64,000 nt of DNA from Sorangium aterium (GTDB lineage Bacteria > Myxococcota_A > Polyangia > Polyangiales > Polyangiaceae). Position 1 is the stretch's first letter, and each line of letters begins with the position of its first letter. The stretch covers positions 1,178,001 to 1,242,000 of the forward strand of contig NZ_JAQNDK010000002.1 in NCBI RefSeq assembly GCF_028368935.1, given 5' to 3'. A model generated the notes under the pieces. It did not search any database, was not told the origin of the DNA, and saw only the letters and a list, made by a program, of their open reading frames with translations. Shown here one piece after another: positions 24,784-34,119 of this stretch. The position numbers and the translations under genes were made by a program.

Positions 24784-25557
24784 ATGGGAAAAGCCGCATT
24801 TCTCGCCCGCCGGCTCACGCCGAGCGGGTGCATTGTTGCAGGTACGAAGCTCGCCGCTCACCGGGAGGCCCTGAAGTCGAAGAAGATCAAGCTATCTCCC
24901 AAGGTCGACGCAGCGGTCCAGTCCGTCATTGCGTCCACCGAGGCCCTCGAGGCGCTCGGGAGCATCGACGCCACGATGGTGGAGATCGATCGCGGCACCG
25001 ACCGGTGCATCGGAGCGTTCAGCAGCCAGCTCGCCAGCATCGAGCGCGCTTTCGATCACGACGACATCCTGCCGCTGACAGATGACGAGGCGGCGCGCCG
25101 TCGCGATGCGCTGCTGGTGCGCTCGGAGGTGCTGTCGTCGGGCACCGGCTTCATCCGCCTCGTCTACTCCCAGCAGTGGGTGCGCATGAGCGCGATGATC
25201 AAGGCGCTCGAGGGCAAGGACGTGAAGGCGGCGGTCGAGCGTCTCGGGCTCTCGGCCGAGACAGGCCGCCTCCAGCGCTGGACGGAGCTGTACGGCAAGA
25301 AGCTCGGCGTCACCGAGGCGAAGGCCGCGGATCCGGCCGTCAAGGCGGTCGAGGCGTGGCACGAGGCTTACGGCACGCTCCTGGTCCAGGCCCATGCCGA
25401 GTACGACGACGACAAGGACGAGACGCACGCGCTCCTCCGCGACCGGCTGCTCTCGCCGTACGAGGACGCGGCGGAGGAAGCGCGGCGCGCCGACCAGCGG
25501 GCCCGCGCCGCCAGCGCCAGGAAGAAGACCGACGCCGAGCCTGAGCCGATCGGATAG
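24784..25557 (+). CDS. Helical protein of unknown function
   Basis: 257 residues, soluble, without signal or membrane segment. It is rich in Ala, Glu, Lys and Arg and predicted almost wholly alpha-helical, with a charged C-terminal tail after 225. A coiled-coil or helical bundle is likely, but I recognise no domain. It starts at an ATG with weak GG-rich sequence upstream. It follows the repeat array, so it may or may not belong to the island. The composition is higher in GC than the oxygenase operon, which suggests native genome. Confidence 0.6.
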   Translation: MGKAAFLARRLTPSGCIVAGTKLAAHREALKSKKIKLSPKVDAAVQSVIASTEALEALGSIDATMVEIDRGTDRCIGAFSSQLASIERAFDHDDILPLTDDEAARRRDALLVRSEVLSSGTGFIRLVYSQQWVRMSAMIKALEGKDVKAAVERLGLSAETGRLQRWTELYGKKLGVTEAKAADPAVKAVEAWHEAYGTLLVQAHAEYDDDKDETHALLRDRLLSPYEDAAEEARRADQRARAASARKKTDAEPEPIG

Positions 25558-25821
25558 CGCTGCTCCTCGCACGCCCGCCGGCAAGCGACCGGCCATCCTA
25601 CCCATCGCGCGTGGACGGCGCCGTTCGCCGGTCACCTCGCAACGCCGCTCCAGTCCCAATTCCAGGTGACATCTCTCCAGGTTCGGGAGAAATGTCGCGG
25701 GAAACCGCGTGCATTCTTTTTCGGTGCTGGCGCACGATTTCGCAACAAGCCGGGAGACCTCTCCGGAAATCGTACGGATGACGACGGACGACGTCGGATG
25801 ACGGATGAGGGAGCTCCGCTC

Positions 25822-26898
25822 ATGTCCGGCGCGCTCCTCGCCCGCGGCCGGATCCGGAGGATGAACCGCGCCGCGCTGTCGCTCGCCGCGGCGCTTTTCC
25901 TGGCGGCGCCCATGGCGCTCGCGCAGGTCCCGCCGCGCGGCGCGCGCCTGTCCTACACGCGGGGGCCTGGCACGGAGGGGTGCCCCGAGGAGCCAAGCCT
26001 CCGGCAGATCGTCGCGAGCCAGCTCGGCGGGGTCGACCCGTTCGTGCGCGACGGCGCGTGGCACATCGAGGTGGTCATCCGGCGCAAGGGGACGGCGTTC
26101 CAGGGAGAGATCGCGCTACATGACCGCGATGGTCGGGCGCTCGGCCGCCAGGAGCACTCGAGCGCGATCTGTGGCGCGCTCGTGGAGGACATCGGCCTCT
26201 CCCTCAGCGCCTTCATGCGCCCGTTGCTGCCATCAGGGCCTGCACCGGAGAGCGTTCCCATCTCGCCGCTGCCAGGGCCGCCGCCCCCGTCGGTGCCAAG
26301 GGGCGCCGCTTCACGCGTCCCGCCGGGCGCGTCGCCCGGGGCGCCGGCCTCGAAGCCGCCCAACCTGGTCGCGGTGCCAGCCCGACCCGCTCCGCGTCCG
26401 AGGCCGCCGCCGGATCGCCCGCGCCTCCAGCTCGGCGCCGGGGTGCTGCTCGGCGCCGGCGTGGCGCCCTCCGTGGCGGTCGGGTTCTCGGGGTTCGCCG
26501 GCGCCCGCTGGGAGAGGTTCTCGCTTTCGCTGGAGGCCCGCGGAGATCTTCCGATCGATGCCGAGCCCTATCGCGGCTGGACCTTCGGCGTGTCGGGGCT
26601 GAGCGGCTCAGTGGTTCCCTGCGGTCACGCGGACTGGTTCTTCGGCTGCGCCCTCGCCACGGCAGGCGGGCTGTGGAACGTCAGGGACAGCACCGGCAGG
26701 GAACTCGTACTGCCCTACGCAGGGCTTGGGTTTCGTGCGGGGCTGGAGATGCCGCTTTCGGCTCGCCTTGCCGGGCAGCTCAGCGGCGACCTCTCGATCA
26801 ACATACATCGGACGCACATTCGACCGATCCATGGCGAGGGGTGGTCTGTGGCGCCGGTCTCGGAGGCGGTGGCGCTCCGTCTGGTCGCTTTCTTCTGA
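25822..26898 (+). CDS. Secreted or outer-membrane protein, beta-barrel-like C-terminus
   Basis: 358 residues. The ATG at 25822 has GAGGGAG 8 nt before it; a later ATG at 25861 abuts GGAGG with no spacing. The N-terminus holds a signal peptide (hydrophobic LSLAAALFLAAPMALA). Residues about 45-150 form a globular domain with the myxobacterial pattern YTRGPGTEGCPEE near the start. A Pro-rich linker (about 150-210) leads to a C-terminal region with alternating strands that ends in Phe-Phe, typical of an outer-membrane beta-barrel. Function unknown. No close neighbour on the same strand suggests a partner. Confidence 0.7.
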   Translation: MSGALLARGRIRRMNRAALSLAAALFLAAPMALAQVPPRGARLSYTRGPGTEGCPEEPSLRQIVASQLGGVDPFVRDGAWHIEVVIRRKGTAFQGEIALHDRDGRALGRQEHSSAICGALVEDIGLSLSAFMRPLLPSGPAPESVPISPLPGPPPPSVPRGAASRVPPGASPGAPASKPPNLVAVPARPAPRPRPPPDRPRLQLGAGVLLGAGVAPSVAVGFSGFAGARWERFSLSLEARGDLPIDAEPYRGWTFGVSGLSGSVVPCGHADWFFGCALATAGGLWNVRDSTGRELVLPYAGLGFRAGLEMPLSARLAGQLSGDLSINIHRTHIRPIHGEGWSVAPVSEAVALRLVAFF

Positions 26899-26929
26899 AC
26901 CTCCGTGCGGTTTCGCGAATCGTCGGACG

Positions 26930-26954
26930 TGCCTATGGGAGCTATTCCCATGAG
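26930..26954. terminator. Small hairpin after the barrel-like gene
   Basis: ATGGGA and TCCCAT flank a five-nt loop (6-bp stem) some 35 nt after the stop and before the convergent lipoprotein gene. It is a weak candidate. Confidence 0.25.
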
Positions 26955-27056
26955 GCGGCTGCGAGCGCATGCAGCGCGCGGAGGTCGCCGCGCGCCCCTC
27001 GCCGCCTGCCACCCCCCTTGGCGAGGCCGCTGTTGCGCCCGAAACGAGCCGTCGAC

Positions 27057-28295
27057 TCAGGCCGGTACAGAGCTGGTGCGTTGACAGCAGAACGTCGCCG
27101 CCGAGGTGGGCGCGACGCTGCCCACCGCCTCGCCGCCGGACGCTTCGCACTTTCCGGGCTCGAGGCTGACGACGCTCACCGACTTGCTTCCGAGCGCCGT
27201 GCCGGTCGCGACGGTCCCGCAGTCGGGGGCGTCGGCCGTGATCACCTGGGCCGCAACGAGCTGCGAGCACCCTTCGTCGCTGAACGCGGAGGCCAGGACG
27301 CTGCATGTCGCTCCGGTGGGCTCGGTGCAGCCGCACGGCGCGCAGCCGCGGGTGTCCTCGACGCCGGTGTGGAAGACGTGCCGGTCCGGGTACGTGGCGG
27401 GGCAGTCCTGCTCTCCCTCGTGGTGGATGCACGTGAGAAACCCCTCCGGCGGCGCGGCGTCGCCGATCGGCGGCGCCGGCGTGCAGGTCATCCCGGGATC
27501 TGCGCACGGGGGGGACGCGTTTCCGGTACACGCGCGGGCGACGATCGCGAAGCTTCCCTCCGTCGCGGGCTCGTCGGGGTTCTCCGGCGCCTCCGTGACT
27601 CTCGGTGCGCAACCTGCGGAGACGACGCGAGGCGCCTGGATCGCGAGCGATTGCACGCACGGGACGCCACCGCAGGTCCGTCCGGTTTCGACGGCATTCA
27701 CCGAGGTGCAGGTCCCGTCCCACCCATCCGGGGCAGCGAACGAGGTCGCTGGCGCCTCGGGGCCGCCGCACGGGAAGCTGGCGTAGGCCCTCCATGCCAT
27801 CGGCACCTCGCATGTCGCCTCGGGCGGGTCGCACGCGCAGGCGGGGCACTGGTGCGGGGCCGGAGCCGCGAAATCCGCGTAGCCTTCGTAGCCGACGATC
27901 GGCGCGTTCGGAGGGCAGCTCGGCACGCCGTCGGGGGAGCCGATCCAGAGCAGCGCGGGCTCGGACCACCCGAGCGGCTCCTTCGGTACGCACTGCCCTG
28001 CGCAGACCTCTGCTGGTGGGATCAGGTCGCCGAAATCGGACGCGATGGCGACGTCCGTGTCGTCCTCGGCCGCGCAGTCATCGCCGCCATCGCCGCCACC
28101 ACCGCACCCGCCAGCTCCGCCGGCGTCCGGGGGGTCGAGCACCTCACAAGGCGTTGTCTTGGGTCCTTGGTCTTCATCCCAGGGGCATATGTATCCGGTC
28201 GACGACCCGCATCCGCCGGACGTGACACCGAGCCCGAGCGTGCTCGCGCACCACACCACGATCCCACGCCGCCAACGTCGTGCCCGCGCCGCCAT
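27057..28295 (-). CDS. Cys-rich lipoprotein
   Basis: 412 residues from the ATG at 28295, with GGAGAGG upstream; the longer start at 28397 lacks a signal. Basic residues, a hydrophobic stretch and GGCGSS give a lipobox. The mature part has about 30 cysteines spread over the whole length, many as CxxC or CxCxxP pairs, as in disulfide-rich surface proteins. I recognise no named domain. Part of the gene (about 27690-27780, a segment around CGGPEAPATSFAAPDGW) recurs at 29790-29875, so it has been a template for a duplication. Stand-alone gene. Confidence 0.75.
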   Translation of the reverse strand: MAARARRWRRGIVVWCASTLGLGVTSGGCGSSTGYICPWDEDQGPKTTPCEVLDPPDAGGAGGCGGGGDGGDDCAAEDDTDVAIASDFGDLIPPAEVCAGQCVPKEPLGWSEPALLWIGSPDGVPSCPPNAPIVGYEGYADFAAPAPHQCPACACDPPEATCEVPMAWRAYASFPCGGPEAPATSFAAPDGWDGTCTSVNAVETGRTCGGVPCVQSLAIQAPRVVSAGCAPRVTEAPENPDEPATEGSFAIVARACTGNASPPCADPGMTCTPAPPIGDAAPPEGFLTCIHHEGEQDCPATYPDRHVFHTGVEDTRGCAPCGCTEPTGATCSVLASAFSDEGCSQLVAAQVITADAPDCGTVATGTALGSKSVSVVSLEPGKCEASGGEAVGSVAPTSAATFCCQRTSSVPA

Positions 28296-28464
28296 GACCT
28301 CTCCATCTGCGGCGCCGTCGAGGGGGCGCCGCGGTAAGCGCGGCCACGTTACCAGGGGACCCCAGGGCGCCGCCAGATCCATCCTGGGGCAGACCACCCC
28401 CGTTCGATCACATTACGAAGAGCGAGGTACTTTTCTCATCTTTCGCAAGGCGACAGCCCGCGTT
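28296..28464. other. Intergenic region upstream of the Cys-rich lipoprotein
   Basis: About 170 nt with the probable lipoprotein promoter on the reverse strand. No motif can be named. Confidence 0.3.
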
Positions 28465-28702
28465 GCCCTTCATGAGGGCTCGACCTTTCCCCGTCGTCGA
28501 GCGGCCGTCCTGCACCTGCCGCCAGAACGAGCGCTCTGGTGCCCCACGGTTACGCGGGCCCGTCGATTGTGCAACGAGAAGCGGTGCAGTCCCGGAAACC
28601 GCTCCGATGAAGACCCCGCTGCCAATTCCTCCCCGCGGAAGGGCCGTCGCCTGTCCTCCGAGCGCCGGAACCCCGGACGGGCCACCGCGCATGCAGCGCG
28701 CC
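28465..28702. repeat. Interspersed repeat, first copy
   Basis: Aligns over about 235 nt, roughly 75-80 percent by eye, to 29891-30117. Shared blocks include GCCCTTCATGA, CGGGCC-GTCGATTGTGCA and GCTCCGATGAAGACCCC. In the second copy GATGAAGACCCC holds the start of a sigma-factor gene; here that reading frame stops soon after. It may be a dead copy of that gene's upstream region. Confidence 0.75.
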
Positions 28703-29075
28703 GCTCGACGTCCTCCGCGTCGCTCCGATCTGCATCACTTGCTTCGTCCGCCACCCCGCAAGCAGGCGCTCCCAGGAGGGCAGCCATGACCAAGGCGATT
28801 CTGCTGCGCGGAGCCACCTCCGGCGCAACGGGGAGCGTTGCGCCGGAGTTCCAGCGCGAACGTCATGCCAGGGTGTCTGTCCCGCACGAGGGGCGAGCGG
28901 ACCGAGCGAGGCGCGGCGCCAGGAGTCCGCCTGGCCGTGTGCCCCATCAGCAAACGAGGGAAGCCAGGCGCGGTCTGTTGCACGGTGACCTTCTCTTATC
29001 GCGCTCCAGACCGTCCTCGGACGAGGTGACGCCGCCGCACCTTTCCGCATCGTGAGACTGAACTAGACTCCGGAC
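28703..29075. other. Intergenic region without a supported gene
   Basis: About 370 nt between the repeat and an interrupted ORF. Open frames on both strands are low complexity and lack signals. Confidence 0.35.
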
Positions 29076-29543
29076 ATGCCTGACCCGGCTCAGCCCTTCA
29101 CCAACGACAACGACGAGGACGAGGATCTGCTCAGCGAAGAGGACGAGGATCTGCTCGACTAAGCGTCTTGGGCCACGCTCTACGCCGTCGGCTACATCCG
29201 CATCCTCGCCGACGCGATCGAGCACGGCGACGCCGATCTCCAGGTGGATCCCTCGGCGTGGGAAAACACCCTGACCGCCGCCGATGGGGCGATGTTGGAG
29301 CACGTCCGCGGTCGCCTGCACGGGCCTATATCCATCACCGTGGAAGACGTCGAACGGATGCGGCGACTCCGCGGACTAGGTTCCGCTGCGCTCTCGGGCA
29401 GCGAGCGGTCGCCCGAGCTCTACCCGCTCGCTCTTCGGTGCATGGAATCTCTGTTCGGACCGGACTGGAAGCGCGCGTCGCGGGAAGCCGCGTTCTACGC
29501 GCGCGCTCTCAATCAGGAGTTCCACCCTCGTAGCCGCACTTAA
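29076..29543 (+). pseudogene. ORF split by an in-frame TAA after 28 codons
   Basis: The ATG at 29076 starts MPDPAQPFTNDNDEDEDLLS and a second DLLD block, then meets TAA at 29160-29162. The same frame continues open for 126 codons (ASWATLYAVGYIRILADAIE and onward) to 29543. Read through, it would give 155 residues. The downstream part has ordered helical character (hydrophobic Leu/Ile/Val spacing) and no good start of its own until ATG 29295 or GTG 29241. Possibilities are a nonsense mutation, a short acidic leader peptide plus separate gene, or readthrough. No family is recognised. Confidence 0.45.
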
Positions 29544-29808
29544 CGGGAGCTCCGGCGATGAACACACAGATGTCCCCGTTTTTGTAATAGTACCAGCATC
29601 TGCTGGCCAGGCCGAGGCCTCTGCATTGCATCAGTAGTCCAGTTTTGACGTCGGATTTGTACGGGTGTTTTCGTCCGGCCGGGCAAGCCATTCCTGCCTC
29701 GGCGCACTTCATCATGCACTCCGACATCGGCCGGGGGGTCTGCGTTGGCGAAGAGCTTGCCGCGCAGAACGGAGGCCGGCGATGATTTCCGCGACCTCTC
29801 GACGGCAT
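29509..29808 (-). pseudogene. Truncated Cys-rich secreted protein fragment
   Basis: 99 codons reading to a stop at 29509. From about residue 28 it is ordered and Cys-rich (MSECMMKCAEAGMACPAGRK, WYYYKNGDICVF), like the C-terminal domain of a small secreted myxobacterial protein. The first 25 codons are Arg/Pro-rich and no signal peptide precedes it. Just beyond the 5' side (29790-29875) lies a fragment duplicated from the Cys-rich lipoprotein gene at 27690-27780. I take it as the tail of a gene whose front was replaced by rearrangement. Confidence 0.45.
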
Positions 29809-29890
29809 TCACCGAGGTGCGTGCACCGTCCCACTCAGTAGGGGCACCGAACGAGGTTGCGGGAGCCTCAAGGCTGCCTCCGGGGACGTC

Positions 29891-30117
29891 GCCCTTCATG
29901 ATGGCTCGGCCTGTTCCCATCGTGCGCCGTCCCCGCCTGCCGCCGGAACGAGCTCTCTGGCCCCCCACGGTGACGCGGGCCAGTCGATTGTGCAGCGAGA
30001 AGCGGGGCAGTCCCGGATAGCGCTCCGATGAAGACCCCATTGCCCACCCCTCCCCGGCGGGAGGGCCGCCGCGATGCGCCTGGATCCCGGACGCGCCGCC
30101 GCGCACACAGCGGGCCG
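29891..30117. repeat. Interspersed repeat, second copy
   Basis: Homolog of 28465-28702. Here it forms the promoter region and first 30 codons of the sigma-factor-like gene starting at 30028. The two copies are in direct orientation and bracket the broken ORFs at 29076-29808. Confidence 0.75.
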
Positions 30118-30672
30118 AAGGAGGCGCTCCACCCGGCGGTCTCGCTCTCGATCGATGCCCTCTGGGCCGAGCGAGCGTTCGTCGCCCACCTGCTCCGCGC
30201 CCTCCACGTTCCCGCCCGCGACCGCGAGGATCTCCTCCAGACGGTGCTCCTCGGCGCCTGGGAAGCCATCCGAGCGCGCAGGTACCGCCCGGACCCACGG
30301 CGGCGCCCGCGCGCGGCGCTGCGCGCATGGCTGCACGGGGTCGCCTGGCGCCAGGTGTCCCATTACCGGGAGAGTGCCTATATCCGCTGCGAGATCCTGT
30401 GCAGCGCGCCCTTCTCGCCCGCCGACCAGTCGCCTGTCGAGATCGAGGGAGAACTCCTTGCCCGCGCCGCGCTCCGCGAGGTCGCCGCGCTCCCCGCGGG
30501 CCATCGCGAGGTCCTCCTCGCGGCGGCCGGGCCTCCGAGCCTCGTCGCCTGGGCACGAGCGTGCGGCATGAACCCCAATTCCGCTGCCAGCAGGCTCCGT
30601 CGCGCCAGGAGGGCGCTGGCCGAGAAACTCGCCTCACCGAGCCTGCCGACCGGTGACGGCGCCGTCCGGTGA
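30028..30672 (+). CDS. Sigma-70-family (ECF-like) sigma factor
   Basis: 214 residues. After an Arg/Pro-rich start of about 45 residues it shows region 2 (about 48-115: WAERAFVAHLLRALH, REDLLQTVLLGAWE, WLHGVAWRQ) and region 4 (about 150-200: ALREVAALPAGHREVLLAAA, then GMNPNSAASRLRRARRAL). These are the extracytoplasmic-function sigma pattern. Region 4 has Pro-Pro-Ser-Leu-Val-Ala in place of the usual first helix of the helix-turn-helix, so promoter contact may be altered. The stop overlaps the start of the next sigma gene (GTGA). No anti-sigma gene is adjacent. The N-terminal segment lies within the repeat described above. Confidence 0.75.
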   Translation: MKTPLPTPPRREGRRDAPGSRTRRRAHSGPKEALHPAVSLSIDALWAERAFVAHLLRALHVPARDREDLLQTVLLGAWEAIRARRYRPDPRRRPRAALRAWLHGVAWRQVSHYRESAYIRCEILCSAPFSPADQSPVEIEGELLARAALREVAALPAGHREVLLAAAGPPSLVAWARACGMNPNSAASRLRRARRALAEKLASPSLPTGDGAVR

Positions 30673-32363
30673 CGCCGTCGCCGATGATGCCTCCGTTCGG
30701 CGCCCGCTCGGCCGGTCGCGTCGAGCCCGTGTACGATTTCGCAACGATCCGGGCGGCCTCGCCGGATTACCTATCCATGAAAGAATCCCGAGCACGCCCA
30801 GCGCCCCCTCCTGCGCCCGACCCGGCGCCGGCGTCTGTACTTGCCCCGGAGGCGGCGCCCGCTCCCGCCCCGGAGATGACGCCTGCGCCCGACCCAGAGC
30901 CCGCTGCCGTACCCGATCGGGATCCTGCGCCCGCCATCGGCCCGCCCCCGCGGCCCTCGTTCGAGGAGGTCTATCAGACCTTGCTCCCGTACGTCCTCGT
31001 GGTGCTCTGGCGGCTCGGCGTTGCATCTCGAGATATCCACGATGTCGCTCACGAGGTGTTTCTCGTCGTTCACCGGCGCCTCGAGGACCACGATCCTCGC
31101 CTGTCGCTCAAACCGTGGATCGCGGGGATCAGCGCCAATGTCGCCCTTCGCCACCGGGCGCTCGCCCGGAACCAGCGGGAGCTGCTCGCGCTCGACGATT
31201 CCGAGCCCATCGAGCTCGCGGACCCCGGGCTCGACGCCGAGCGCCGGGTCGCACAGGCCGAGACCCAGCGCATCGTCCGCGAGCTCATCCAGCGCATGGA
31301 GAGGGAACGACGAGCGGTGTTCGTGCTCTACGACCTCGAGGGGAGCGACATGCGCGACATCGCGCAGGCCCTCCAGATCCCCGTGAACACCGCATGGGAT
31401 CGGCTGAGACGCGCCCGCAGCGAGTTCACGGCCGCGGTCAAACGCCTCTCCGCGCGGGACCCGGACGCGCTCGGCCTTCGTCGCCTGCGCGTCGTCCTGG
31501 CGCCGTTCGCCCTTGCCGACAGACCCATGCTGCTCGACGCAAGCAACGCCCGGCTCGGCCTTGCGCAGGGGCTCGCCGGACCGCTGTGGGTGCAGCTCCA
31601 GCGATCGCTCGCCTCGACCGGAGGGCTGGCCCGCCGCACGGACGGCCTCCACGGCAGCCCCGCAGTGCAGCCCCATGCCGGCGCCTCCCCGCTCCACCGT
31701 CCCGCGAGCGCGGTGGGGCCCGCCGGCGCCACCGCGGAGAAGCGCACGCCGCCGGTCATCACGATCGCGCGATCCAGGCTCATCAAGGCAGGCGTTGCGC
31801 TGTTCCTCGGGGGAGCCGGGGTGGGCGCCGGCGTGGTTTATGCCGGGCTCCCGCCGCCTGCTGCGGCGCCGGTGGTGTCCGTCCGCGCCGAGGTCGAAGG
31901 CGCCGCGTCCGAGCGAGCCGGGCGCACCGAAGCGGGGCACGACGGGCGCGCCGCGCCCGAGCGAGCCGAGCGCGCCGCGGGCGAGCTCGCCGTGGTCGAC
32001 GCCGTCGCGAACGCTGGGCCCTCGGTGGCGGTGGCGACGGCGGCCGCGGCGCCGTTACGCGCCTCCCCCCGCAAGGCGGCTCCGCCCAGCGAGCACGACA
32101 CGACCGAGGAGAGCGCGTTGCTCAGCAGCGCCGGCCTTGCGCTCAGCGAAGGGAAGGCGACAGAGGCGCTCGAGGTGCTGGCCCTGCACGAGCGGAGTTA
32201 CCCGCGCAGCCCGAGAGTCCAGCTGCGCGAGGCGCTGGCCATCCAGGCCCTCGTCCAGGCCGGGCGGCGCGCCGACGCCCGCGCGCGAGCGGAGCGGTTC
32301 CGCGCGGCGTTCCCTCACGCCGTGTTTCTCCCCGCCATCGAGGCGGCCGTGAACAGCCCATGA
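30669..32363 (+). CDS. ECF sigma factor fused to a membrane segment and helical repeat domain
   Basis: 564 residues. The GTG start overlaps the previous stop as GTGA, so translation is probably coupled. After a Pro/Ala-rich lead of about 95 residues come sigma region 2 (about 99-165, DIHDVAHEVFLVVHRRL) and region 4 (about 207-260, RRAVFVLYDLEGSDMRDIAQ, NTAWDRLRRAR). A transmembrane helix lies at about 372-393, followed by an Ala-rich linker and a TPR-like C-terminal domain (about 480-564). In many myxobacterial loci such a membrane plus repeat part is a separate gene next to the sigma gene and acts as its partner. Here they are joined, giving a membrane-tethered sigma factor. Activation by proteolysis or signalling would be needed for release, which is inference. 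Confidence 0.8.
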   Translation: MTPSPMMPPFGARSAGRVEPVYDFATIRAASPDYLSMKESRARPAPPPAPDPAPASVLAPEAAPAPAPEMTPAPDPEPAAVPDRDPAPAIGPPPRPSFEEVYQTLLPYVLVVLWRLGVASRDIHDVAHEVFLVVHRRLEDHDPRLSLKPWIAGISANVALRHRALARNQRELLALDDSEPIELADPGLDAERRVAQAETQRIVRELIQRMERERRAVFVLYDLEGSDMRDIAQALQIPVNTAWDRLRRARSEFTAAVKRLSARDPDALGLRRLRVVLAPFALADRPMLLDASNARLGLAQGLAGPLWVQLQRSLASTGGLARRTDGLHGSPAVQPHAGASPLHRPASAVGPAGATAEKRTPPVITIARSRLIKAGVALFLGGAGVGAGVVYAGLPPPAAAPVVSVRAEVEGAASERAGRTEAGHDGRAAPERAERAAGELAVVDAVANAGPSVAVATAAAAPLRASPRKAAPPSEHDTTEESALLSSAGLALSEGKATEALEVLALHERSYPRSPRVQLREALAIQALVQAGRRADARARAERFRAAFPHAVFLPAIEAAVNSP

Positions 32364-32587
32364 GGGCCGCCGCGTGCGCTTCTGCGCTTCGCCTCCGATC
32401 GACGACACCGCCGGCGCTTCGGCCCTCCGCGAGCGGGCGCACGGGTTCGTCGGGTCCGCTCGCGAGGGAGAACTCCGGTCGGGCTGTCCGCCGCAGCCGG
32501 AGGACGCCGGCGGCCGGACCCGACGCCATGCAGGTGGTGCTCGACCGGCCGTGGGGCGCGGGCTAGCCTGTGCGGGAAGGACCCACG

Positions 32588-33154
32588 ATGAGCAAGAAGC
32601 TGGACGACGAGTTGGCCCAGGCGCTGTCTCTCGCAGAGCAGCAGGATACGCCCGCGGTGGTGAAGCCGGCCGCGGCCAGCCCGGCGCCGAAGGCGCGCCC
32701 GTCGCGCAGCCTCGGCCTGCTGGCGACGCTGCTCGTCATGGTGGGCGCGCTCGTCGCCCTGTTCCTCGTCGGCTTCAAGGAAGCGGCCGTCTACGCGACG
32801 CCGGTCGACCAGCTGCTCGCGTCGAAGGACAAGCTCGCGGGCCGCAAGGTCCGGGTCGAGGGCGAGCTCGTGCCCGGCACGCTGGTCAAGCGCGATTCGC
32901 CCTGCGAGTACCGCTTCCAGATCCACGGCACGCAGGCGGCGCTGCCCGTGCGCTACGCCCAGTGCGTCATCCCCGACACCTTCCGCGACGTCCCGAGCGG
33001 CGGCGTCCAGGTGACGGTCGAGGGCGCGCTCTCGCAGGGCGGCGACTTCGAGGCGAGCCTCGTGATGGCCAAGTGCACCTCGAAGTACGATCCCAACTCG
33101 CACGAGATGAAGGGCGGCGCCCAGCCCGGCGCGGGCCCGCTCTCGCTCAACTGA
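32588..33154 (+). CDS. ccmE: CcmE-type haem chaperone, CXXXY variant
   Basis: 188 residues, ATG with GGAAGG upstream. One transmembrane helix (about 43-63) follows a cytoplasmic lead. The periplasmic OB-fold (about 70-165) has the CcmE strands: RKVRVEGELVPGTLVK, PVRYAQCVIPDTF and VTVEGAL. In standard CcmE the haem-binding His sits in a HxxxY motif; here the position is Cys163 with Tyr167 (KCTSKY). The CXXXY form is known from archaea and some deltaproteobacterial-type bacteria that use a variant System I for cytochrome c maturation. No other ccm gene is next to it. It could serve the c-type cytochrome encoded at 52515, though distance makes that only a possibility. Confidence 0.85.
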   Translation: MSKKLDDELAQALSLAEQQDTPAVVKPAAASPAPKARPSRSLGLLATLLVMVGALVALFLVGFKEAAVYATPVDQLLASKDKLAGRKVRVEGELVPGTLVKRDSPCEYRFQIHGTQAALPVRYAQCVIPDTFRDVPSGGVQVTVEGALSQGGDFEASLVMAKCTSKYDPNSHEMKGGAQPGAGPLSLN

Positions 33155-33345
33155 GCGCTCCCCGCCCAAAGGCGCCGCCGCGCGCGGCGCCGACACGCCC
33201 AAAGCGCCGCCCCGCGGCGCCGACACGCCTGGATCCATCTCCCCGCTCCCCGGCGGGCCGCTGACTGGCTCGCTCGCGGGACCTTGAGCCTCCTCGACAA
33301 GCTGGTTAAGAGACATCCCCGGACCGACGCCCGAGGAGGAGGCAT

Positions 33346-34119
33346 TTGAGCCACGATCGCGATCTCGTCGTCCTGACGCAGAACATCTGGGGGGGAGTCG
33401 CCCTCTGGGAGCGGCGCCGGACGATGCTTGCCAGGCTCATCGGCGATCTGCGCCCCGGCCTCATCGGGCTCCAGGAGGTGCACGCGGCGGCGGCGAGCGG
33501 CGATCTCGGCCAGGCCGGGGAGCTCGCGCGGCTCGCCGGCGGATACAGGGCCTGGTTCGCGCCGGGCAGGGTCGCCGCGAGCGGCGAGTGCGAGGGGGTC
33601 GCGCTGCTCTGCCGGGAGGACGTCGAGGTGCTCGACCACTCCGTGGAGGCGCTCACGCTCGATCGCGACGATCCGTTCGAGCGTGACAGCCAGCGCGTCG
33701 TCTTGCGCGCCGCGATCCGGCACGCCGGCGCGGTGGTCGACGTGCTCGTCACGCACCTCTCGCTGTCGAAGCGCGCCCGGGCACGCACCGTGCGCGAGCT
33801 CGTGAGCTTCGCCGCGCGCGAGCGCCAGAAGTCGGGGAGCCAAGGCGCCGTGCTGATGGGCGACTTCAACGCGCTCCCCAGCGAGGAGGCGGTCTGTTAT
33901 CTCCAGGCGAGCGCCGGAAACGGCTCCTGGCTCGACGCCTGGACGCAGGCGCACCCCGGCAAGGCGGGCGGCACCTGGCCCGCGGGCCTGCCGCTGCGCC
34001 GCATCGATTATGTCTTCGTTCAACCGGGGGAGGGGTGGGCGATCACGCGCTGCGAACGGGCGCCGTTCTCCGGCTCGGATCACCACGGCGTGGCCGCGTG
34101 GCTGCGGCTCGGCGCCTGA
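33346..34119 (+). CDS. Endonuclease/exonuclease/phosphatase (EEP) family hydrolase
   Basis: 257 residues from a TTG codon preceded by GAGGAGGAGG at good spacing. The EEP motifs are in order: LTQNIWG near 10, LQEVH near 41-45 (metal-binding Glu), THLSLS near 134-139, MGDFNALP near 168-175 and SDHHGV near 243-248 (general base His). The family covers phosphodiesterases such as DNases, sphingomyelinases and inositol phosphatases; no subgroup can be fixed, and no signal peptide is seen so it is cytoplasmic. Isolated gene. Confidence 0.85.
   Translation: MSHDRDLVVLTQNIWGGVALWERRRTMLARLIGDLRPGLIGLQEVHAAAASGDLGQAGELARLAGGYRAWFAPGRVAASGECEGVALLCREDVEVLDHSVEALTLDRDDPFERDSQRVVLRAAIRHAGAVVDVLVTHLSLSKRARARTVRELVSFAARERQKSGSQGAVLMGDFNALPSEEAVCYLQASAGNGSWLDAWTQAHPGKAGGTWPAGLPLRRIDYVFVQPGEGWAITRCERAPFSGSDHHGVAAWLRLGA

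Follow-up and report, generated by a model that had tools for sequence, protein, structure and literature searches.

The window analysed here, a stretch of 64,000 nucleotides (nt) of Sorangium aterium DNA (positions 1178001-1242000 of contig C2 in a 13.47-Mb Sorangium genome, labelled G000), encodes a protein, here called sigma2, in which an extracytoplasmic function (ECF) sigma factor, a predicted transmembrane (TM) helix and a tetratricopeptide repeat (TPR)-like tail are joined in one chain. The fusion is genuine and has been conserved, and the sigma2 gene is preceded by a promoter-like element that recurs before its closest relatives and before a neighbouring gene, tgt. That sigma2 is an ECF factor which is tethered to the membrane, controls its own gene and senses through a periplasmic TPR tail, similar in design to IutY of Pseudomonas putida but composed of unrelated parts, is a reading in which we place slightly better than even confidence. 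A preliminary description of the region had proposed the joining of sigma-70 regions 2 and 4, a TM helix and a TPR-like tail in one chain, and this layout is borne out by Pfam searches, hydropathy, and structure prediction with AlphaFold2 (AF2) followed by Foldseek. The parts of sigma2 are the following:

30777..32363, + strand: sigma2, ECF sigma factor with membrane helix and TPR-like tail (528 residues from the conserved ATG; the mechanically called open reading frame, ORF, begins at GTG 30669)
30972..31157, + strand: Sigma70 region 2 of sigma2 (Pfam PF04542, residues 102-163 of the ORF from 30669)
31269..31421, + strand: Sigma70 region 4 of sigma2 (Pfam PF08281, residues 201-251 of the ORF from 30669)
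31794..31850, + strand: predicted TM helix VALFLGGAGVGAGVVYAGL of sigma2 (hydropathy, flank charge and ratio of nonsynonymous to synonymous substitution rates, dN/dS)
32091..32360, + strand: TPR-like tail of sigma2, five helices, predicted to be periplasmic (AF2, Foldseek and dN/dS)

Sigma2 possesses regions 2 and 4 but lacks region 3 and is thus an ECF (group 4) sigma-70 factor. Its region 2 matches Sigma70_r2 exactly on the Pfam cut-off (E 3.3e-5, 24.0 bits) and its region 4 matches Sigma70_r4_2 over the cut-off (E 4.2e-11); the NCBIfam model sigma70-ECF is likewise matched over its cut-off, and SigH, SigE, CnrH and SigW are among the sequence matches in the PDB. Region 4 is followed by a segment of about 100 residues, an uncharged stretch of 19 residues with a mean Kyte-Doolittle value of 1.82, a Pro/Ala-rich linker and the tail of about 90 residues. 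The flank on the N-terminal side of the 19-residue stretch carries three positive and no negative residues in the window, and two to four positive and zero or one negative residues in all eight sigma2 copies compared. Judged by hydropathy and flank charge, sigma2 is therefore predicted to have the architecture of an ECF factor with a fused membrane anchor, of the type seen in IutY, ECF52 and ECF53, where a TM segment follows region 4 within the same polypeptide; the helix that the preliminary description had assumed is thus predicted by hydropathy as well. The Gly-rich composition of this segment would be compatible with a substrate of regulated intramembrane proteolysis, in which site-1 and site-2 proteases cut in response to a signal.

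For the tail, AF2 modelling of a 110-residue construct (32031-32360) together with 15 relatives yielded five helices with a mean predicted local distance difference test score (pLDDT) of 88.1. BamD ranked first among the Foldseek matches of this model (TMq 0.65, E 0.027, probability 1.00), which also include YbgF and a designed TPR protein; matches to BamD and YbgF range from TMq 0.62 to 0.67 and from E 0.027 to 0.25 at a probability of 1.0. The model thus suggests that the tail is TPR-like and nearest to the periplasmic TPR proteins BamD and YbgF. A Pfam scan of sigma2 to E 1 returned, past region 4, just weak matches to YfiO, Wzy_C_2, 3HCDH_RFF and TPR_14, and neither a FecR match nor a carbohydrate-binding domain. 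Zinc-finger anti-sigma (ZAS) domains are characterized by the motif HxxxCxxC; sigma2 contains no Cys at all, and the motif is present in none of the eight aligned copies.

The fusion is not restricted to the window. Among the Sorangium genomes compared (G000 and others labelled G100-G104), group A orthologs of sigma2 are found in G102, G103 and G100 (81-84% identity to sigma2 of the window). Paralogs forming a group B are present in G000, G103 and G100 (52-55% identity), and there is a group C with one copy in G100 (50% identity) and one in the draft genome G103 (L070/L184). Eight of these nine copies, which are distributed over four genomes, are intact and encode a single chain (group A 4/4, group B 3/3, group C 1/2), the ninth, L070/L184, being broken by a stop. 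An alignment search with sigma2 covered 46 genomes of the bacterial family, and of the four loci inspected outside the genus, one (L289, in G046, a member of another genus) is fused and three (L290-L292) are split. Comparison of sigma2 of the window with its three orthologs gave low dN/dS values for regions 2-4 (0.21-0.33), for a 30-residue stretch around the TM helix (0.16-0.33) and for the tail (0.30-0.46), as opposed to 0.46-0.98, 0.74-0.99, 0.82-2.28 and 0.79-1.25 for four linker-type stretches. Low values in the TM stretch and tail relative to the linkers indicate that anchor and tail have been retained as parts of sigma2. An origin of the fused frame in an assembly or gene-fusion error, which the preliminary description had named as a way in which it could fail, finds some support in the stop that interrupts L070/L184; it is already refuted by the single chain in the other copies of groups A to C and in another genus and by the constraint on both halves, and deserves practically no weight.

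Relatives in which the two halves are separate genes are nevertheless more numerous. A homolog listing contained 80 loci, of which we examined 18, namely four from Sorangium and 14 from records naming Myxococcota, Deltaproteobacteria or their families; the remaining 62 are largely from other phyla. Of the 14 relatives outside Sorangium with named genomes, 11 have a tail, in all 11 cases encoded by a separate gene, and three have no visible tail. The whole sample holds 28 split loci (17 in Sorangium, 11 outside) as compared to 17 tail-bearing fused loci, in agreement with the earlier statement that in myxobacteria the membrane and repeat protein is commonly encoded separately. At split loci the sigma factor stops shortly past region 4 and the tail gene follows next on the same strand, encoding, where read by eye, a short hydrophilic start and then a hydrophobic stretch. 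The split ECF and TM-TPR genes of myxobacteria thus share with sigma2 the same sigma-core family and the same tail behind a hydrophobic stretch, and differ from it in using two genes for one. An hhalign comparison of the profile of the fused extensions with that of the split TM-tail proteins supports this correspondence (probability 99.8, E 1.3e-26), mainly via the tail.

In a tree of 62 sigma cores (omitting the duplicates L189-L192, the interrupted L184, and cores shorter than 120 residues or with E above 1e-15), the eight rows of groups A-C form one clade (support 100/100), which is nested in a set of 34 rows (99/94) together with the split loci L193, L194, L197, L199 and L203 and other fused Sorangium loci. 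The fused label needs five changes on this unrooted tree, which thus speaks neither for nor against a single origin of the fusion. Given 28 split relatives, the fusion is probably, and most simply, the derived state, perhaps reached more than once.

Three observations weigh against our view of the C-terminal half of sigma2 as membrane anchor and periplasmic tail. The predicted TM helix is short and Gly/Ala-rich, with Kyte-Doolittle values of 1.40-1.82 across groups A-C; the Foldseek matches of the tail all have E values above 0.001, so that the TPR-like assignment is a statement on fold class; and a full-length AF2 model of sigma2 was poor (mean pLDDT 47.8) and was set aside. If the hydrophobic segment were not a membrane helix, the C-terminal part might be a cytoplasmic interaction switch, as in ECF42, which has a TPR-rich extension of about 200 residues (PMC8999054), and the moderate hydropathy would suit such an arrangement. 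We nevertheless regard it as quite improbable, because the flank charges noted above recur in all eight copies, because the separate proteins of split relatives likewise have a hydrophobic stretch at the corresponding position (by eye and by the profile match), and because constraint on the TM stretch equals that on the sigma core. Moreover, the tail of sigma2 is a single unit of about 90 residues behind a predicted TM segment and nearest to periplasmic TPR proteins, whereas ECF42 is distinguished by a long TPR-rich extension with no membrane helix.

The start of sigma2 had to be settled by comparison. The preliminary description had reported two sigma-70-family genes overlapping as GTGA, the first of which is listed here:

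30028..30672, + strand: sigma1, companion ECF-like sigma factor, 214 residues (weak Pfam and NCBIfam matches; family; dN/dS)

The tandem ECF-like frames 30028-30672 and 30669-32363 indeed have the letters GTGA in common, and these letters are present in all four orthologs. Only one of the four, however, has the GTG in the frame of sigma2; in the other three it is shifted out of frame by indels (1 and 2 nt) that lie after GTGA and before the sigma core. Translational coupling through GTGA was therefore rejected, the shared letters standing and the coupling not. The four group-A orthologs also have in common a GTG or ATG corresponding to position 30729; it has no counterpart in L002 (group B), where no in-frame ATG, GTG or TTG precedes the conserved ATG and the DNA 45 to 11 nt before that ATG is nonetheless conserved. 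ATG 30777 is the start common to all sigma2 orthologs compared, and it leaves a gap of 104 nt between sigma1 and sigma2 that contains the promoter-like element.

This element, YACGATTTYGCMAY-N17-CGGA-N10-ATG, precedes the sigma2 genes, looks undescribed and has the geometry of an ECF promoter. Neither the element nor the conserved neighbours of sigma2 at 25822-26898 and 27057-28397 figured in the preliminary description. Three instances lie in the window:

30732..30766, + strand: sigma2 element, TACGATTTCGCAAC-N17-CGGA, ending 10 nt before ATG 30777 (genome-wide scan, register and spacing)
29983..30017, + strand: sigma1 element of the same layout, GTCGATTGTGCAGC-N17-CGGA-N10-ATG (layout kept in 4/4 group-A orthologs)
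25733..25767, + strand: tgt element, CACGATTTCGCAAC-N17-CGGA (genome-wide scan; counterparts in the three other group-A loci with 0, 1 and 1 mismatch)

The distance between element and ATG is exactly 10 nt in nine of ten sigma2 genes, including L289, and 13 nt in L067. The site at L289, which played no part in defining the element, matches 10 of the 14 -35-like positions and keeps both spacings, as does just one of 33 such partial matches in the 10-kb locus. With AAC 17 nt ahead of CGGA and the ATG 10 nt after it, the arrangement fits an ECF promoter; were transcription to start at the ATG, AAC would be located at -34 to -32 and CGGA at -14 to -11, positions which likewise suit this type of promoter. 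In the sigma1 element the -35-like part varies among the four group-A orthologs and differs from that of the sigma2 element.

The bipartite pattern was scanned in six Sorangium genomes (G000 and G100-G104), allowing up to two mismatches and with a backwards control. All eight perfect places are located before a fused sigma2 gene or tgt (three each in G000 and G103, one each in G100 and G102), those in G000 being sigma2-A, sigma2-B and tgt. Nine further places have one mismatch, six of them before module genes (three in G100, one in G102 and two in G103, one of the latter representing a second box before sigma2-B), so that 14 of the 17 places with 0-1 mismatch precede a fused sigma2 gene or tgt. 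An overlapping 22-letter pattern is found at 12 places with 0-2 mismatches, each of them before a fused sigma2 gene or tgt, in four of the six genomes; at three mismatches it returns mostly background (39 places compared to 12 in the backwards control over the six genomes). G101 and G104 contain no sigma2 match of the A-C type and no perfect place of the element, and have one and zero one-mismatch places, respectively. As tgt and sigma2 are unrelated genes, the element they have in common is not simply due to descent of the genes.

A number of results weigh against the view of sigma2 as an autoregulated factor that acts through this element. Three of the 17 places with 0-1 mismatch are located elsewhere (in G000, G101 and G102). 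Places with two mismatches number 34 in the six genomes as against three in all for the backwards control, and five genomes of other genera contain no perfect, three one-mismatch and 32 two-mismatch places, from which it follows that the control understates the background and that just 0-1 mismatch is informative. The tgt genes of groups B and C have no place of the element at up to two mismatches, and control of tgt by sigma2 therefore rests on group A. An alignment of the DNA upstream of the fused genes of a further group, D (L154, L171, L181, L182 and L188), shows no such element, and autoregulation is thus not established for every fused form. In addition, the likeness of the elements of groups A, B and C may partly reflect shared descent of the upstream DNA.

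The element could also be read by another factor, such as sigma1 or a vegetative sigma factor, or serve as an operator for a transcription factor, in which case sigma2 might be tethered without regulating itself. This would be in keeping with the position of sigma1, which adjoins sigma2 in groups A and B and in group A carries an element of the same layout. We nevertheless judge it unlikely, though deserving of serious attention. The group C locus L183 has the element and no companion ECF gene, which ties the element to sigma2 rather than to sigma1; L289 has a degenerate element, and the 10 kb read at this locus revealed no further ECF gene; G101 and G104 possess sigma1-family genes and lack both an A-C sigma2 and a perfect element; and the spacing of AAC, CGGA and ATG is that of an ECF promoter.

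Several other candidates were dropped in the course of this analysis. The 11-mer GATTTCGCAAC proved too loose, three of its four places in the window's genome being module sites and one not, and the bipartite pattern was used instead. A position weight matrix scan was not used as evidence, having been trained on its own 13 matches. An inverted repeat in the element (CCGG...CCGG), which as read by eye pairs well in group A only, was dropped as a hairpin, and Rfam gave no matches at gathering scores over 25000-33500. Since the GG-GC spacing of the sigma-54 consensus is 10 and that at tgt is 11 (by eye), a sigma-54 site at tgt was dropped as well. At 25778 and at its counterparts in G100, G102 and G103 an ATG is seen by eye 9-10 nt after the tgt element, upstream of the probable tgt start (25822); the frame that it begins is either very short or out of frame. 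In group B loci (L087 at 3801, with counterparts in L002 and L071) the sigma2 element is preceded, at a distance of about 120-130 nt, by a second copy of the -35-like part.

Two further genes accompany sigma2:

25822..26898, + strand: tgt, secreted outer-membrane-like protein (homologs beside fused and split loci; signal peptide, start and barrel by reading of the sequence)
27057..28397, - strand: cys, Cys-rich lipoprotein-like secreted protein (homologs at group A-C loci; lipoprotein-like by reading of the sequence)

The tgt product appears to consist of a signal-peptide-like start, an N-terminal domain with two Cys, a Pro-rich linker and a C-terminal barrel-like part ending in F; it has neither a Pfam match nor a PDB sequence match to E 1, and cys has no Pfam match. 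A tgt homolog on the strand of sigma2 and a cys homolog on the opposite strand are found beside all nine group A-C loci (tgt is cut in L084, L090 and L183, and was seen further in L187, L192 or L190). Homologs of tgt are also present at the split loci L193, L194 and L176, being located upstream in L193 and L194 as at the sigma2 loci, and at the fused loci L154, L166, L168, L171, L181, L182, L188 and L289; in L289 the homolog lies just upstream, with 53 nt from the tgt stop to the sigma ATG. Its presence at both types of loci suggests that the link between tgt and the sigma factor may be older than the fusion. The distance from the tgt element to the sigma2 element is about 1.4-1.6 kb shorter in G100 and G102 than in G000 and G103.

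Sigma1 is less clearly a sigma factor by sequence than sigma2: both of its Pfam matches and its NCBIfam matches (best E 3.1e-7) fall below the cut-offs, so that the assignment of both genes to the sigma-70 family in the preliminary description holds well for sigma2 and weakly for sigma1. Pairwise dN/dS among the four orthologs is 0.34-0.84 for region 2 and 0.14-0.53 for region 4. The sigma-like family to which sigma1 belongs occurs in seven of 108 genomes of the bacterial family, six of them Sorangium, with up to 19 matches per genome (nine in G101, one in G104). Several of its copies (e.g. among L091, L092, L093, L095, L096 and L102) are preceded by a short frame with a CxxC-like end (by eye). 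In group A, sigma1 is located between cys and sigma2, and in group B it follows sigma2; neither of the two group C loci yielded a copy.

Counting as a companion any further ECF gene that lies on the same strand at a distance of up to 1.3 kb, we found one at 14 of 19 fused loci and at none of the 28 split loci (Fisher p 3.4e-8, a value that ignores relatedness; orthologs were counted singly, which inflates the count). Companions accompany the fused genes of groups A, B and D, of L159 and of one of the two C loci, and are absent from L160, L165, L166, L168 and the other C locus. L101 and L103, both with a companion, were retrieved via sigma1 and omitted from the count; the fused ORF of L167 was lost by the E cut-off, yet an ECF gene lies 1.1 kb off, and the sequence of L210 is cut at its upstream end. 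The idea of a hetero-system, put forward in the preliminary description, gains support from this association, although the order of the genes varies, the companion preceding sigma2 in group A and following it in groups B and D. One could go further and regard the fused protein as no longer a sigma factor, its role being that of a membrane anchor that sequesters or recruits sigma1 as the real effector. The frequency of companions beside fused genes would favour this, yet regions 2-4 of sigma2 are under clear constraint and score above sigma1 against sigma families, and five of the 19 fused loci lack a companion while orthologs inflate the count of the others; we therefore consider it improbable.

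Behind the fused sigma gene of group D lies another ECF gene, and the DNA upstream of the latter contains a T-run and CTCCTAA block conserved in five genomes; this block is perhaps another dedicated promoter. Around sigma1, a direct duplication (28461-28635 and 29887-30056, separated by 1421-1426 nt, 84-88% identity) includes a copy of the promoter-like element of sigma1 and of its first codons, and a fragment of cys recurs before sigma1 (27688-27775 and 29799-29886, 2111 nt apart, 80%), likewise in G103.

How a membrane-tethered, autoregulated sigma2 might work can be outlined as follows. Regions 2 and 4 would be cytoplasmic and connected through a linker to one Gly-rich TM helix with its N-terminus inside, and a Pro/Ala-rich linker would lead to the periplasmic TPR tail. 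At rest, the chain would be kept at the membrane, away from RNA polymerase. An envelope signal, most likely arriving via the outer-membrane-like tgt protein, with the cys protein as a further surface part, would act on the TPR tail; this step, suggested by the conserved neighbourhood and the shared element of group A, is a guess. Cleavage in or near the membrane would then release the sigma domain; by analogy with IutY, anchored sigma2 would be expected to be silent and cleaved sigma2 to be active. The released factor would recognize its own promoter, with ACGATTTCGCMAC as -35, CGGA as -10 and a spacer of 17 nt, and transcription starting at or beside the ATG would turn on the sigma2 gene and, in group A, tgt. 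Sigma1 would probably be a second output or a partner of the module.

Fused sigma/anti-sigma proteins are already known from elsewhere. IutY (ECF243) is a natural fusion of this kind and is cut by Prc and RseP; truncated IutY is active without a signal, and ECF48, ECF52 and ECF53 are expected to act likewise (PMC9249621, PMC8999054). ECF48, ECF52 and ECF53 of Actinobacteria (e.g. SCO4117, with a Pro-rich periplasmic region) carry C-terminal TM fusions with predicted proteolytic activation (PMC8999054). They are described there with a zinc-finger domain, whereas sigma2 has no Cys. In IutY, as predicted for sigma2, a single polypeptide holds an ECF sigma factor, one TM segment and a periplasmic part; IutY has an outer-membrane partner and serves surface-to-gene signalling. 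Its periplasmic part is FecR-like, in contrast to the TPR-like part of sigma2. The partner of IutY is IutA, a TonB-dependent receptor, while tgt has no Pfam match and nothing at the sigma2 locus points to iron. Sigma2 also differs from FecI-FecR-FecA systems, in which a TonB-dependent transducer is encoded beside the sigma gene, as tgt matches neither Pfam nor PDB entries. Within the same genus, a table in PMC8999054 lists Sorangium cellulosum examples with regulatory extensions in ECF220 and ECF276 (mechanism 'Others'), of which sigma2 may or may not be a member. Sigma2 is set apart from the fused ECF factors IutY, ECF48, ECF52 and ECF53 by its TPR-like periplasmic part, by the absence of FecR, zinc-finger and TonB-receptor features, and by its frequent companion sigma factor. 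None of the papers listed in literature searches describes the fused family or the element by title or abstract; the ECF classification paper was outside this search, and unpublished status is not implied.

An element obtained from genome comparison provides an exact reporter construct, by which recognition by the sigma factor, tethering and the role of the companion become directly addressable, and if the 10-nt rule reflects leaderless transcripts, the start sites of these genes are predicted. It is tempting to see in sigma2 a new form of surface signalling in myxobacteria, in which one chain would serve as receptor domain, anchor and sigma factor with a tiny regulon of its own and a leaderless mRNA, and a dedicated second ECF factor would make it a two-output or hetero-regulated switch; a single giant Sorangium genome might then operate a number of these modules side by side, each with its own promoter. 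This we offer tentatively, as a rather doubtful extension. So0157-2 is reported to encode 109 sigma factors and six anti-sigma factor proteins (PMC3696898). Part of the answer to the question of how so large a number of ECF factors is restrained may be built into the sigma chain itself.

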